From Corynebacterium felinum (lineage in GTDB: Bacteria; Actinomycetota; Actinomycetes; Mycobacteriales; Mycobacteriaceae), in assembly GCF_030408755.1 (NCBI RefSeq), contig NZ_CP047209.1, positions 2,914,001 to 2,978,000 on the forward strand: a DNA stretch of 64,000 nt. Direction: 5' to 3'. The notes below the pieces were generated by a model, which was not told where the DNA came from, searched no databases, and saw only the letters and a program-made list of their open reading frames with translations. Of this stretch, positions 2,636 to 63,749 are shown piece by piece (the first letter of the stretch is position 1; the number at the start of each line of letters is the position of its first letter). The position numbers and the translations under genes were made by a program.

Positions 2636-3584
2636 GAGGTTTTCTCACCAGAGTATTTTGCGGGCTAGGTGTAGGACGACTAAAGCAGTTTTTGCGATGG
2701 CTGTAATGGTTTTAGGGCATAGTGTTACACGCCGTAGTGCTTTGAGTTGTTTGAGCATGGCGTTTGCTCGTTCTGATGGTGCTCGCAAACCGTTAAGACG
2801 ACGGTTGTACTCGTATTCGTCATCTGCCAGATTCCTTCCTCTGATCGGTGTGTGTACGTTGTGACCTGCACCAATGTAGCCTTTGTCGGCAAGAACGCAA
2901 ATATCAACAGTGCTTATTGCATCAAGAACATGCTCACGCGCTGCTGTGATGTCGTGGGTTGATCCAGGAGATACTGAGGATACCCATAGTGGGTACCCAC
3001 TCTCGTCAGTGAGCACCTGTACATTGCCACCAAATGCCTTATGTTTTCCGGAATACCACAGATCGTGACGGTTTTTCGGGTTCTTTCTCGCTACGCGGTC
3101 TGTTCGGATGAGTGTTCCGTCAAGGCAGACGAAAAGATTATTGGCGTCCTTGGCATGGCGTAGTGCGTCGATGAGGGTGGGAGATTTGGCGGAAACAACC
3201 CTGAGTGCTTCATGGATGTAGCGGTAGCCTGTGGCTTGTGAAACACGAGCATCACGAGCAATAGTAGCGATACTTGTTGCTTCATAAAGCCAGCGTAGAA
3301 GCATAATTGCTTGCTCCCAACACGTTGTGGCACGTTGATGGGGGCGAAGGTCATGTCGACGGCGATGAGCTTGAAGCCAAGCGCTGATGGTACGTGCAGT
3401 GGAAATTGGGACGTCAAGTGTGGCAGAATAGCGAAGCACGCGGGAGTTCCTTTCAGTTTGATTTTCCTGTATCAAAAACCATTCTGAGTAAGAACCCCGC
3501 GTGCTTTCGTTACGACACACCCACAAAACCCCCAAAACCACAGGTCAGCGTTTCAAACGCATTTCCCCGGTGAGAAAACCTCAG
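2636..3584 (-). mobile_element. IS5-type insertion sequence nested in the IS3 element
   Basis: Perfect 15-bp terminal inverted repeats TGAGGTTTTCTCACC lie at 2636-2650 and, inverted, at 3570-3584, giving a 949-bp element. It interrupts the 3' end of the IS3 orfB, so it arrived after the IS3 element. I could not define a clear target duplication; at most one base (C) is shared at the junctions. One full-length transposase frame fills the element, so this copy may be functional. Decayed relatives lie upstream at 1495-1946 and 2032-2046. Confidence 0.85.
2645..3541 (-). CDS. IS5-family DDE transposase
   Basis: The 298-residue product has an N-terminal helix-turn-helix-like part (TSIATIARDARVSQATGYRYIHEAL, residues about 90-115). 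The DDE_Tnp_4 core has the first Asp in LFVCLDGTLIRTDR, then WYSGKHKAFGGNVQVL, PGSTHDITAAREH, the second Asp in CVLADKGYIGAG and the Glu in LRAPSERANAMLK. The stop codon lies inside the left terminal repeat, as is common in compact elements. The GTG at 3541 is the first start in the frame, but a later GTG such as the one at VLRYSATLDV would also leave the catalytic core intact. The frame shows no decay. Confidence 0.85.
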   Translation of the reverse strand: MVLGVLWVCRNESTRGSYSEWFLIQENQTERNSRVLRYSATLDVPISTARTISAWLQAHRRRHDLRPHQRATTCWEQAIMLLRWLYEATSIATIARDARVSQATGYRYIHEALRVVSAKSPTLIDALRHAKDANNLFVCLDGTLIRTDRVARKNPKNRHDLWYSGKHKAFGGNVQVLTDESGYPLWVSSVSPGSTHDITAAREHVLDAISTVDICVLADKGYIGAGHNVHTPIRGRNLADDEYEYNRRLNGLRAPSERANAMLKQLKALRRVTLCPKTITAIAKTALVVLHLARKILW

Positions 3585-4420
3585 TATTTCAAGTAACTGT
3601 GCCGACGTGTGGTGTTGTACCTGACACACCAAGAAAACACTTCTTTTCGACATTGGAGCATGGTGTCAAAGACCTTCCGATCTTGAAGGACTTCACGTTT
3701 TAATGTGGCATTAAACGACTCTGCAAGCGCGTTATCCGCACTCGTGCCAACACCACCCATGGACTGGGTCACTCCAAGAGATTTACATTGCTGTTGGAAA
3801 ACCTGTGAGGTGTACACACTTCCATGATCTGAATGGAAAATCGCACCTTTTAGTGACCCACGCTGGTCTTTTGCCATGGCGAGTGCTTCACCAATAAGAT
3901 CAGTGCGCATGTGATCAGCTAACGCAAACCCGGTGAGTTTACGGGAGAAACAATCAATAACTGTGGCCAGATACATATTCCCACCACCTTTAATCGGTAG
4001 GTAGGTGATATCACCCACATACACTTTATTCGGGCGATCAGCAGTGAAATTACGCGTGACCAGATCCGGGAAAACACTGCGATCTTTCCTGGAAATAGTG
4101 GTTTTGACCTTGCGTTTTTTGCTGTACCCACGCAGATTCATCGATGCCATCAACCTAGCAACACGTTTATGATTAACAGGCTCATACTGATCGGAAATTT
4201 CAGCCGCGATACGTTTCGCCCCGTAACAGCCATTGAACTGGTTGAACACAGAAAGAATACGCACCGCCAACAACGAGTCCTCGCACGTTTTAGTGTTACG
4301 AACAGCACGAGCTTTGCGCCACTTGTAAAACGATGAGGCATTAAGTTTCAGCACCTCACACATCCGCTTGACCGAATAATCGGTTCGATGGTCTTCGACA
4401 AACTGGAAGCGGATCACCAA
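3581..4420 (-). CDS. IS3-family transposase OrfB (rve core), C-terminus cut by nested IS
   Basis: An HTH_21 segment (CEVLKLNASSFYKWRK) is followed by the integrase core with catalytic residues in YVGDITYLPI (Asp), HSDHGSVYTS (Asp) and DNALAESFNATLKRE (Glu). It ends YNTTRRHSYLKY at a TGA supplied by the inserted IS5-type element. About 21 native residues are missing and can be read on the other side of that insertion. The frame overlaps orfA by a few bases, as expected for an OrfAB fusion made by programmed -1 frameshifting. The lost tail lies outside the catalytic triad, so activity cannot be excluded. Confidence 0.85.
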   Translation of the reverse strand: MVIRFQFVEDHRTDYSVKRMCEVLKLNASSFYKWRKARAVRNTKTCEDSLLAVRILSVFNQFNGCYGAKRIAAEISDQYEPVNHKRVARLMASMNLRGYSKKRKVKTTISRKDRSVFPDLVTRNFTADRPNKVYVGDITYLPIKGGGNMYLATVIDCFSRKLTGFALADHMRTDLIGEALAMAKDQRGSLKGAIFHSDHGSVYTSQVFQQQCKSLGVTQSMGGVGTSADNALAESFNATLKREVLQDRKVFDTMLQCRKEVFSWCVRYNTTRRHSYLKY

Positions 4421-4713
4421 TTTGTCTCTTCCGCGAAATATTTAACAGCCTTACGCAAAATATCACGCTCTTCAGTCATTTTACGCAGCTCACGCTCAAG
4501 CTCACGGATACGTTCAGCTTCAGAAATTGCCTGAGCTTGCCGCTTTTGCACCGCAACACGAGAACGCTTACCAGTGCCCAAATCCTTGACCCACGTATGC
4601 AGAGATTGCCGATTAATCCCCAAATCAGCAGCGGCCTTCGCTAGAGACAGTTCCGAGTTCTCATAAAACGCAACAGCGTCACGCTTGAACTCATCTGAAT
4701 AAAACCTTGGCAT
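4414..4713 (-). CDS. IS3-family transposase OrfA
   Basis: The 99-residue product starts MPRFYSDEFKRDAV and carries an HTH_Tnp_1 DNA-binding domain (LSLAKAAADLGINRQSLHTWV, residues about 22-42). A leucine-zipper-like coiled coil (ERIRELERELRKMTEERDILRKAVKYF) occupies the C-terminus and would allow multimerisation with OrfAB. A longer frame opens at 4746, but the MPRF start at 4713 fits the family. It overlaps orfB at 4414-4420. Confidence 0.85.
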   Translation of the reverse strand: MPRFYSDEFKRDAVAFYENSELSLAKAAADLGINRQSLHTWVKDLGTGKRSRVAVQKRQAQAISEAERIRELERELRKMTEERDILRKAVKYFAEETNW

Positions 4714-5076
4714 AAAACTACAGTACCTTCCTCCCACCTCATACAAGCGGGAAATCAGGTGTCTACCAAACGGGGGTCAGGTCCTCACTTTATCACCAAG
4801 TGACCATTACACTTCCACAGACGGATTCAAAATCACGACAATCAGTGAATCTATCCAAAACTCCGGAACACAATTCCGCCGAGCGGGTACAGCACCTCAC
4901 TGCATTTTCGCATACAAATCCAAAGGTGCAATTCAAGTCCAAAACAACTGCCCCGACGGATGGCGTGTCAAAGTGATCTTGCGATATGCAGGAGATACAG
5001 CTTGCAAATGGGTGGAGCCTGGAACCCGGACAAATATCGGATTCAATCCGGTCGCAACAATTGATGGTGTAGACCT

Positions 5077-35940: not shown

Positions 35941-36941
35941 CTACCTTTGTTTTACCGCTAGGTGCGCCGCACGTTTGTGGTGGTTTTTTAATAGTGTTCG
36001 TAGCTGATAGATCATCGGGTGATCAAGGGGATCAAGGTTGGGGATATCGGCTCTACTCAGGCTGGGATCTACTTCCTCTGGTCGGAAGCGCATGATGATG
36101 TAGCCGAGGTTTTGGATAATTTTTTCCCGATAACGTTCATCTTCAAGCGCATGGTAGTTGTTACGGGTCTTAGCCCGCCCGTCGATTTCTATCCCTATGA
36201 AACCGTTAACCACAATATCGATCCGGTATTGATTAACAGGTACTTGAATTTCTACGCTGGTTATTTCTGGAATGCGGTCAAGTACACGTTCAATCAACCG
36301 GCGGGCTTTAGTCTCATAAAGGCTTTCACTTCCTTCTTTCGCGGTTTTCAACAACTCCAAGGCTCGGGGTTTACCCGCGATGCTCGGCATAGATTTGATG
36401 TCGGCATAGGCTTGGATTTTCGTGATACGCCCTTGTGTAAACGCTGCCTCGATAAAAGTTATGGCGATATCTTCGTCTTCTTCTTTAGCTACCAGATCCA
36501 CGAATGTACGGGAAATTTTTGTCACACGGACACCGTTTTCTTCCACAATGTCCTCTTCCGGCAACAGCCTAGAAGTGTATGAGACATAGGGACTGCGCTG
36601 GTTTTTCGCCGGAGGTTTCATCCTCCCAGGCAGTGCGACATGCACGGTAGCAAAATCTGTGGTGTTAGAGATAAAAGGAATACCTAAAAACAGGCAGCTG
36701 CCCTACCAACAAGTACAGCAGTACGAGATGTTGAAGCTACTGCATAACAGCGCATGAGGTTGCGTGAGCTAGGAGGAAGGCGCTGAAACACCTCGGAATC
36801 AATTGCTTGGGTACAGGCGAGTTTTCTGATTTTTACCCGCATACCTTGTGGGTTTTTCCGCAGGTTTTTTAAAGCATGAAGCGGTAGAGAGATATTCAGG
36901 CCGCGAGTAATGGTGTAGGTATTAGTGTTCATACTTTTCAT
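35941..36941 (-). pseudogene. AbiEi/DUF559-type endonuclease-like gene with frameshift
   Basis: Two frames join into one protein of about 333 residues if one base is added to an A5 run at 36686-36690 (T5 on the coding strand). The first ends VLVGRAAACF then stop; the second resumes LGIPFISNTTDFATVHVALPGRMKPP. The N-terminal part resembles AbiEi-like antitoxin proteins (RCYAVASTSRTAVLVGRAAA, later VTKISRTFVDLVA). The C-terminal part carries a DUF559/Vsr-like PD-(D/E)XK fold: ESLYETKARRLIERVL, YRIDIVVNGFIGIEIDGRAKT and a late RFRPEEV. Start is ATG 36941 or 36932. No toxin partner (AbiEii) is adjacent. The second frame alone (from 36645) could still yield the nuclease half. It lies beside the 115-bp array. 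Confidence 0.68.
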
Positions 36942-37075
36942 CAGAACACACCTGTAGCAAGTTCGCATCTCGAAGGGAACAATGTTCCCACGCCGCGATG
37001 TTGATATCCCCTTAAATCCCCTAGCTGTGGACAACTTTGCCTAGCCACAAACACCAACAGCAACAGCATGTCGAT

Positions 37076-37597
37076 AACTCGACTTTTCCTACCTTTAGGG
37101 CGAGTACCCGTAGCTTTTACGTAATTTGGTCGAGTTACCCTGTGGCAGGTTCGCTCAAGGCAAGATTCAAGGGCTCACACGAATCAAGCAACTCGACCTT
37201 TCTGTCCTCAGCGAAGGGAGTTGGACCGTTCTCCAAAGAAAGGTCGAGATACCTCACACGCAGCTCATGCTAGGTGCGTAGTACGCCCTGTAGCGCTTAC
37301 AAGTAACTCGACTCTTTGCCTCAGGAAAGCCTTGGGGCCAATGGGGAGTCGTCAATCAGTCGAGTTACCTCGCGGGTGGCTTCCTTCAAGCAGGGTGCAC
37401 GACCCAGGTGAGTCAAGACAACTCGACTTTTCCCCATTATGGGATGCAGATTCATTGGTGTATTCACACAAAGGTCGAGAAAGCTCATATGTTCCTAGGC
37501 ACGGGAGGCTATTGCACCCCATGAAAATTGGAGGTACCTCGACTTACTAGATCCCAAGGTTCGTATATTCGCGGTTTGAGTGCGGATCAGTCGAGTT
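37076..37597. repeat. Array of ten 8-bp motifs in alternating orientation, period about 115 bp
   Basis: AACTCGAC (or one-base variant) starts at 37076, 37190, 37305, 37420 and 37536. Its complement GTCGAG(TT) starts at 37129, 37243, 37359, 37474 and 37590. Same-orientation copies are 114-116 bp apart, and alternate gaps are 53-54 and 61-62 bp start to start. Flanks are partly conserved: GTCGAGTTACCTCGCGG at 37359 and 37590, AAAGGTCGAGA at 37243 and 37474. Sequence between motifs is otherwise unique. Neighbouring motifs can pair either way, for example a 13-bp stem in the second unit. No frame here looks coding. The 855-bp stretch 36942-37796 between the nuclease pseudogene and pepN holds nothing else I recognise. 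Function unknown. Confidence 0.85.
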
Positions 37598-51341: not shown

Positions 51342-52063
51342 AATTCCTCAAACCTTCGTTTCTTCAGGCGCCCGCATTGTTCAAGGCACTCGTGTGTAAA
51401 CACCACCCCAGTAAAAACTCACCACGCGCACAGTAAAAGCACTGATGGTTTGCACTGTATGGAGGGTTAAGCCCCTATCGTGTGCAGCGTGCACACAGCA
51501 GATGCTCATTGTTTATTGATGTAATTGTCCCATTTTATATCGTGCGCTTGGCTGTATTTGTTTCACTCTTCCCCCACCTCCTCTTTATTCGTCACTGCGC
51601 TCATCTTCGCCAGTGCGCATGAGAGGGTTTCCCTGTTGTGTGGCCACGCGCGGTGGGGCTGGCTGTTGGGGGTGGTGGGGCTTAAGGTGCAGCTTGTGAT
51701 GCTTGGGAATTTCGGCGGGGATAGGGCAGGTAGCGTCTAGCCACACACCGGGAAAAGTACCTATCAATGCCAAGTTTATTGATTCAAAAATAATAGTTAG
51801 AGTTTCAGCGCGTAGGCGAAAAATTGACCTGCGGTTTTAGCGGTAGCACTCGCTCTATCTCTAACTGATATTTTGCTAAGAGTAGACTCTGCCCTCATTG
51901 GGCCACAGCACCCCCAGCTGCACACCCCCGCATAGCCCTTTAGCTATGAAATCAGGCAGGAAACTAAGGCTGCAACAAAATGCCACAAGCACCATCCCCG
52001 CCCCCTTTTCACATGCAGCGTTGCATATAAGGTGAGGGATAGTGCTTGGTGGTTGTGGTGCGT
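51342..52063. other. Insertion-like region between pks13 and fadD32
   Basis: 722 bp separate genes that are normally almost adjacent in mycolata. No convincing gene is seen; a 71-codon frame at 51525 has no support. 51342-51520 probably contains a promoter for pks13. 51530-51680 is pyrimidine-rich then G-rich. A dispersed-repeat copy lies at 51778-51882. 51895-52060 shows nothing I recognise. Confidence 0.6.
51778..51882 (+). repeat. Dispersed ~100-bp repeat, copy A
   Basis: It aligns with 63650-63749. Shared blocks are ATTGATTCAAAA, TAATAGTT, GAGTTTCA, AAAAAT-GACCTGCG, AGCACT, CTATCTCT and ACTGATA, with equal-length variable spacers (11 bases each) between blocks. It sits in the pks13/fadD32 junction. 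Confidence 0.8.
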
Positions 52064-63334: not shown

Positions 63335-63649
63335 GAACCCCACTAACTCCTTTGCGATCCATATCCTTAAGAAAATCTCACCATAGTGGCAACGCTAGAC
63401 ATCATGGACAACTCAAAAGATTAACCTGCTTAATCACCTGATTTTCCAGCGCCCTAGCCATAACTAGGATAGTGGCAAAGGTTGTCTGTCACGCAGTTTT
63501 TCGCTTATTTTTTTTGCAAGGTTTCTCAGCCCCCGCTCAGTCCCTATTTTTACCACCCCCACTCCCCCACACCTTGCCCCACACACGGGCACGGATATCA
63601 GAAACCATCGCAAACACCCAGTGGGCGCCATGCATATAAATGCGTGCGC

Positions 63650-63749
63650 ATTGATTCAAAATAATAGTTCGAGTTTCATCACACCCGCCAAAAATCGACC
63701 TGCGACTTCAGTAGAAGCACTTGTTCTATCTCTCACTGATAGTTTCCTC
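63650..63749 (+). repeat. Dispersed ~100-bp repeat, copy B
   Basis: This is the partner of 51778-51882, same block order and spacing in the same orientation. It sits between the excisionase-like gene and ubiA. It contains CTATC-N7-GATAG, a short palindrome partly kept in copy A. The rest of 63335-63863 has no convincing gene; 63500-63600 is pyrimidine-rich. Confidence 0.8.

Follow-up and report, generated by a model that had tools for sequence, protein, structure and literature searches.

Inverted-pair units beside AbiEi-Vsr-like genes of Corynebacterium as candidate binding sites of the linked proteins

The stretch of Corynebacterium felinum DNA analysed here (the window, 64,000 nucleotides, positions 2,914,001-2,978,000 in a genome of 3.24 Mb assembled as one contig) carries at 37078-37595 an array of five inverted pairs of the form CTCGAC-N45/46-GTCGAG, each 57-58 bp long, next to a decayed AbiEi-Vsr-like gene. 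We consider it probable that such units are cognate binding sites of AbiEi-Vsr-like proteins, and that they have spread around the genes in a manner resembling that of REPINs. The sequence evidence for this reading consists of a genome-wide family of units, their rigid spacing, linkage between genes and arrays, motifs that are specific to individual genes, and duplicated segments that hold array and gene together, bounded by a half-site at one end and by the stop codon at the other. Recognition of the units by the protein is suggested by correlation, and we infer binding itself, autoregulation and copying by the nuclease.

Inverted pairs in the window and across the genome

The window array is made up of the following units:

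37078..37134, no strand: unit 1, inverted pair CTCGAC-N45-GTCGAG, 57 bp
37192..37248, no strand: unit 2, inverted pair, 57 bp
37307..37364, no strand: unit 3, inverted pair, 58 bp
37422..37479, no strand: unit 4, inverted pair, 58 bp
37538..37595, no strand: unit 5, inverted pair, 58 bp

Successive CTCGAC starts are 114, 115, 115 and 116 bp apart and successive GTCGAG starts 114, 116, 115 and 116 bp apart, as given in the initial annotation, and the array pattern did not occur in any of 100 dinucleotide-preserving shuffles of the window. That annotation had described ten identical eight-mers; the six-base core is exact in all ten, but the eight-mer in only seven (AACTCGAC four times and GTCGAGTT three times), the inexact ones being ACCTCGAC, GTCGAGAT and GTCGAGAA. 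The 231-bp echoes that it reported are present, and the interiors of the array are mutually unlike, as expected from its statement that the intervening DNA is unique, although the pair itself belongs to a family found across the genome. It was also right to set the locus apart from a standard CRISPR (clustered regularly interspaced short palindromic repeats), which has identical direct repeats of 20-50 bp, whereas the cores of this array are inverted, 6 bp long and constant in spacing. A similarity search with the whole array recovered the array itself in C. felinum; among 151 genomes of the genus, the other matches were short (<40 bp) and mostly at chance level, with a best E of 3.5e-4.

Recurrence of the motif had been named beforehand as a test, and the motif is present about 150 times in the C. 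felinum genome. The pattern CTCGACN{43,48}GTCGAG gave 148 matches there, compared with 3 for a reversed-pattern control. With a stricter pattern, 8 of 242 genomes of the genus contained a match: C. felinum (95), Corynebacterium mustelae (G026; 53), G136 (39), Corynebacterium senegalense (G096; 8), G155 (7), and three genomes with one each, a level that the control column also reached in some genomes. A scan of genome contigs with a pattern narrower than the family, in which records of C. felinum itself may be left out, returned 13 stretches, 9 of them from Corynebacterium sp. S30M_Sa_12; four single matches in unrelated bacteria were taken as chance.

The spacing of the units is rigid. When one core mismatch and lengths of 55-61 bp were allowed, 151 of 154 matches, located in 416 kb of stretches, measured 57-59 bp. 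The core letters served as the search key, so their conservation follows by construction, but this is not the case for the YTTT-like bases inside the core, the A and G bases outside it, or the AT-rich centre, all seen in 96 units from which near-copies had been removed; the remainder of the interior carried near-zero information. The layout is thus that of REPINs, with two inverted motifs at fixed spacing, extragenic and in many copies. A structured RNA, which the initial annotation had offered as a possible role, or single-stranded hairpins, would account for the complementarity of the unit ends, which could still pair, and there is a weak, marginal excess of units with identical inner tetramers (33 of 96, with 26.3 expected, P 0.02). 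However, 68 units of 58 bp displayed no interior pairing covariation (symmetric diagonal z -1.0), the window had no Rfam match at gathering thresholds, and in 12 of 15 units of G155 and C. senegalense the inner tetramer CGAT faces GGTT, a combination that pairs incompletely. We regard this explanation as highly improbable.

At least 46 arrays with an exact unit are present in C. felinum, comprising 43 clusters and three further arrays; the 46 clusters used to analyse steps include three without an exact unit, among them those at 2537079 and 2586753. Clusters hold 1-7 units, and steps between consecutive units peak at 113-117 bp. Strict helical phasing was considered and rejected: a 10.5 period fitted 96 steps (R 0.46), but in a collapsed set of 57 values R was 0.34 and the best period 11.35. 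Because the 10.5 period weakens once repeated steps within arrays are collapsed, we claim only the preference for 113-117 bp. According to simple calls of open reading frames (ORFs), most arrays are situated between larger ORFs, several overlap small frames, and the one at 328.6k falls within a called ORF of 345 aa.

The linked AbiEi-Vsr-like gene

Proteins beside the C. felinum arrays repeatedly match a single family, DUF559/REase_MTES_1575, at array loci of other species. In P0001, the protein by similarity to which gene loci were picked, both Pfam models (DUF559 and REase_MTES_1575) scored under their cut-offs, and the middle part matches AbiEi models. The modelled protein resembles an AbiEi antitoxin in the predicted fold of residues 43-199, and it is also predicted to contain a Vsr/homing-endonuclease-type fold with conserved acidic residues; the linked gene would therefore be of AbiEi plus Vsr-type nuclease character rather than a tyrosine (Y1) transposase such as the REPIN-associated RAYT enzymes. 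There was no NCBIfam match for the linked protein, and none in the PDB by sequence for P0001, with an alignment giving 3hrl at E 0.082. Relatives of both protein halves have target sites of 49-60 bp (PMC7319586, PMC3943268).

The copy in the window is represented by two features:

35965..36972, minus strand: decayed AbiEi-Vsr-like (DUF559/REase_MTES_1575) gene copy, 67% identity to P0001, four internal stops
36684..37034, minus strand: open frame containing the 5' portion of that decayed gene, 66% identity to P0001 residues 23-109 at 36684-36944

A piece at 35941-36645 matches PF04480 above cut-off (23.2 vs 20.6 bits) as well as PADLOC AbiEi models, and neither Pfam nor PADLOC gave a match to the frame at 36684..37034 itself. 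A nuclease-like pseudogene beside the array, as initially annotated, is therefore what is found there, and the array lies upstream of it. The suggestion that the array is a multi-site protein-binding scaffold comes near the reading favoured here, in which the units are putative sites.

The same arrangement recurs. All seven close paralogues in C. felinum (56-100% identity) have an array upstream, including the decayed window copy and the copy at 1047k, whose units have one mismatch, and so do all four paralogues in C. mustelae (52-61% identity), one of which contains internal stops. DNA identity among three C. felinum copies is 98.6-98.7%, or 97.3% with the array, and copies 1047k and 2532k have array plus gene in common (97% over 1261 bp), with matching that reaches 8 bp outside the outermost core. 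At the other end, the stop codon or its immediate neighbourhood marks the limit of matching in 8 of 9 copies examined, that at 1361k ending earlier. The ratio of nonsynonymous to synonymous substitution rates (dN/dS) was 0.32 for the 551k-2532k pair, and 0.58, 0.45, 0.18 and 0.04 for younger pairs, with 8-17 differences each. We also noted one or two TTATCCACA words, which we take to resemble a DnaA box, between array and gene upstream of the 551k, 587k and 829k genes.

Gene-specific half-sites in the genus

Gene loci of approximately 2.6-4 kb, 44 in all, were searched for repeated dyads, defined as two or more units with one 8-mer half-site at constant spacing. Repeated dyads were found at 21 of the 44, compared with none of 71 control loci and none of 44 shuffles, and 12 of 31 loci still had them when the 13 belonging to the CTCGAC family were set aside; mirror and complement searches each gave 1 of 44. 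Longer stretches, mostly of 20 kb, had three or more units in 10 of 33 cases (9 of 33 without L290, which is a tandem copy of another element) and two or more in 17 of 33, while the corresponding numbers for 27 control stretches, drawn from eight of the genomes concerned, were 0 and 1. Arrays of homologues outside the CTCGAC family use other half-sites in similar geometry, and there are fourteen different half-sites in all, up to seven per genome. The extreme is G191, in which each of the seven genes found has a different half-site, with spacings of 52-75 bp across the set.

Counts of exact TGTGCTGC dyads are 21 for G191, 31 for C. mustelae and 40 for G136; C. felinum has none, and the control gave none. 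They cluster around their cognate genes, with all 21 in G191 within 33 kb and all 31 in C. mustelae within 161 kb, and those of G136, among the matches listed, are on one contig, the same as the gene. In a tree of 43 proteins (L205 and L206, of 45 loci, gave no protein), TGTGCTGCG accompanies sister genes in G136, C. mustelae and G191 (47-49% identity), AAGCTCC accompanies sister genes in G119 and G191 (57% identity), and the ACTCGAC genes of C. felinum and C. mustelae form one clade. As judged from these sequences, half-site sharing tracks protein clade in the three motif groups that cross species, with one exception, taken up below; the remaining motifs are confined to one genome each and are uninformative in this regard. 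Such agreement, and the linkage of genes to arrays, would be unexpected if the units were ordinary miniature repeats (miniature inverted-repeat transposable elements or similar to repetitive extragenic palindromes) that are moved by an unrelated transposase and lie near these genes by coincidence. That explanation, which we judge quite improbable, would fit the duplication of array segments and the many C. mustelae units that by eye have a common interior sequence in both orientations.

Constraint on the half-sites was assessed by comparing orthologous units. In three TGTGCTGCG units, differences between G136 and C. mustelae affect 3 of 54 positions in the half-sites and 65 of 135 in the interior (P 4e-9), although these units lie upstream of the gene and were found by their half-sites, a choice that somewhat favours the result, and their constraint could be operator constraint alone. 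Away from the gene, the solo unit at 2168k of C. felinum has a counterpart in G136 between orthologous genes, and only the half-sites are clearly alike. It is conceivable that all units are autoregulatory operators that were multiplied by tandem duplication, with the distant arrays forming a regulon. AbiEi relatives autoregulate through repeat pairs, as described in PMC7319586, arrays lie upstream of the close paralogues, and the conserved orthologous units are likewise upstream of their gene. In contrast, 15 of 44 C. felinum arrays lie between convergent ORFs (simple ORF calls), where no promoter is expected, and some genes in certain species are flanked by single dyads on both sides (L266, L269, L274 and L280), so an operator role by itself appears improbable.

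Short tandem repeats of 6-7 bp are another feature near some of the genes, on both sides in L230 (G198) and L226 (G226), and mainly on one side in L221 (G198). A plasmid search with one homologue returned two Tsukamurella records at about 30% identity.

Chromosomal position, proposed mechanism and comparison with known systems

The units are not evenly placed on the chromosome. Among the matches listed, C. felinum has no exact unit in 1,023,350-1,924,362; DnaA is at base 1 (read by eye), and sampled skew and coding strand switch near 1.45-1.5 Mb. The corresponding gap in exact units of C. mustelae is 1,463,624-2,065,302, within which sampled skew switches at 1.65-1.73 Mb. Unit interiors of C. 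felinum are G-rich on the plus strand in 24 of 27 right-arm arrays and C-rich on the plus strand in 14 of 17 left-arm arrays, although part of this polarity may be general skew. As a general rule, polarity by replication arm was rejected, since by eye it does not hold in C. mustelae. Of the solo arrays in C. felinum, 34 of 41 lie no more than 120 kb from a close paralogue, a zone that covers 45% of the genome. Clusters 2537079 and 2586753 were left out of the locality and polarity counts, and the three further arrays are absent from the latter.

These distributions raise the possibility that the arrays are chromosome-organisation sites, bridged by a protein to fold or mark a region, much as with Noc, SlmA or MatP sites, and spread by selection rather than mobility. 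The zone without exact units around the terminus of C. felinum, as placed by sampled skew (chance 1e-5 for 49 uniformly placed arrays, a value overstated since arrays are clustered), its counterpart around the skew switch of C. mustelae, the preferred 113-117 bp step and the arm-linked polarity are consistent with this idea. However, the gap may merely mirror the positions of gene copies, and it contains a one-mismatch array beside a gene copy at ~1.048 Mb; a single arm of C. mustelae has, by eye, interiors in either orientation, and the diversity of half-sites within a genome opposes a single housekeeping role. We consider such a function rather unlikely.

Several observations weigh against binding sites spread around their genes. 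The locality statistic in C. felinum is modest (circular shift, 55/3000), and the 587k gene copy, 98.7% like that at 829k, does not have the 829k array in common with it. In the genus, 23 of 44 gene loci have no repeated dyad, including L224 and L220, sisters of dyad-bearing genes; L212, sister of the TCGGAGAT gene L190, does have TCGGAGATTC words on alignment. In G136, despite 39 CTCGAC units, the top match to P0001 reaches 39% identity (draft assembly of 60 contigs). The exception to motif-clade agreement is that ACTCGAC dyads of G155 and C. senegalense adjoin a gene of a distant clade, on its downstream side, which may reflect convergence or exchange. Dyads were present within 2.5 kb at none of 18 genes outside Corynebacterium, these being places with shorter open frames (277-524 aa) among the matches listed in an order-level PF18741 search, which returned 30 loci, mostly in long frames; dyad linkage is therefore not a general DUF559 trait. 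Finally, a Foldseek search gave nothing at E 0.001 or better. Regarding the G155 and C. senegalense dyads themselves (G155 1679545-1679823 and 1854441-1854646, G096 2049001-2049133), we observed that their inner tetramers differ, and that at a locus alike in both genomes the dyad copy number is 4 vs 2.

With these points considered, our preferred reading remains that of cognate sites. Each unit would be a ~60-bp binding site for a dimer of a two-domain protein, with an AbiEi-type DNA-binding half and a Vsr/homing-endonuclease-type nuclease half, encoded beside the array by a gene that in the window is decayed. A particular half-site sequence and a particular fixed spacing would characterise every gene lineage, and its protein would bind the array upstream of or flanking the gene, probably repressing itself as AbiEi does. 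Additional sites, in some cases accompanied by the gene, would spread as arrays into intergenic DNA around it, in a process resembling REPIN/RAYT dispersal or homing by the nuclease half; the recombination substrate proposed in the initial annotation could hold solely in that sense. More tentatively, and with somewhat greater doubt than assurance, AbiEi-Vsr fusions may form a class of territorial elements with private 60-bp dimer sites, in which homing-like copying seeds and maintains a field of such sites around each gene, 30-160 kb wide or covering much of the chromosome, and several specificities share a genome.

Other repeats were noted in the window. A second dispersed element of ~115 bp with a conserved interior is present at 51753-51877 and 63631-63748 (minus strand), and elsewhere in C. 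felinum at 108.3k, 570.5k, 593.5k, 860.8k and 1023.0k, with three tandem copies near 2633.4k (L290). Its stem exists in two versions, GATTCGAC/GTCGAATC and AGTTAGAG/CTCTAACT; in 5 of 21 predicted pairs, at least one sequence has both partners changed, and there was no Rfam match at E 1. Five copies lie ~40-200 bp from a CTCGAC unit, and the two window copies do not. Positions 1-1472 and 3582-4784 of the window belong to two repeated segments that are near-identical and may be insertion sequences; elsewhere, at 99.9-100%, the genome has them at 662470-664258, 2583000-2584788 and 2588004-2589206.

If the proposed mechanism is correct, REPIN-like dispersal would have evolved twice, here with an enzyme of another fold, and the DUF559/Vsr-like genes of Corynebacterium would gain a testable DNA target. 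A private motif for each gene would supply ready cognate protein-DNA pairs, seven of them in one genome, and the gene-centred fields would offer a direct way to study the spread of a repeat family along a chromosome and to ask whether dedicated proteins mark chromosome regions in bacteria.

Among known systems, Noc, SlmA and MatP each have many dispersed sites per protein with a regional bias; the sites described here differ in being rigid ~60 bp pairs that form gene-specific families, several per genome. REPINs, according to PMC3116915 and PMC8049555, are paired short inverted sequences, extragenic and in many copies, and each class flanks a dedicated RAYT gene; RAYTs are single-copy, and some genomes have more than one REPIN class. 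The units share with them inverted pairs with biased spacing, extragenic location, high copy number, an enzyme gene of their own and several classes per genome, but differ in that the linked gene is AbiEi-Vsr-like rather than a tyrosine transposase, hairpin covariation is lacking, copies are concentrated around the gene, and the gene is multi-copy in C. felinum and C. mustelae. The operators of AbiEi and Rv2827c (type IV toxin-antitoxin systems) are also inverted pairs upstream of a gene, to whose AbiEi fold the prediction for residues 43-199 corresponds. PMC7319586 gives two tandem pairs of 23+13+23 = 59 bp each (our sum) for Rv2827c and 23+3+23 for AbiEi; one promoter with one or two pairs is involved there, compared with ~150 pairs genome-wide and a nuclease domain here. 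I-Bth0305I, an EDxHD/Vsr-like homing endonuclease, is a phage-type intron enzyme whose dimer occupies a target site nearly 60 bp long (PMC3943268). The predicted nuclease fold and the target scale are alike, and homing genes spread; the many putative target copies around the gene set the present case apart from an intron enzyme.

Among the titles and abstract openings listed from an open-access library (most subscription journals lie outside it), we found no link of DUF559 or AbiEi genes to dispersed repeats; the stem-loop surveys PMC2267715 and PMC1590033 name, in their accessible portions, C. diphtheriae as the only Corynebacterium, and PMC12907096 includes a DUF559 passage. Because no nearest known kind agrees on every defining feature, AbiEi-Vsr genes with their private repeats appear to make up a repeat-plus-enzyme system of a kind not described before, although classing them as a variant of REPIN-like systems may be the cautious alternative.
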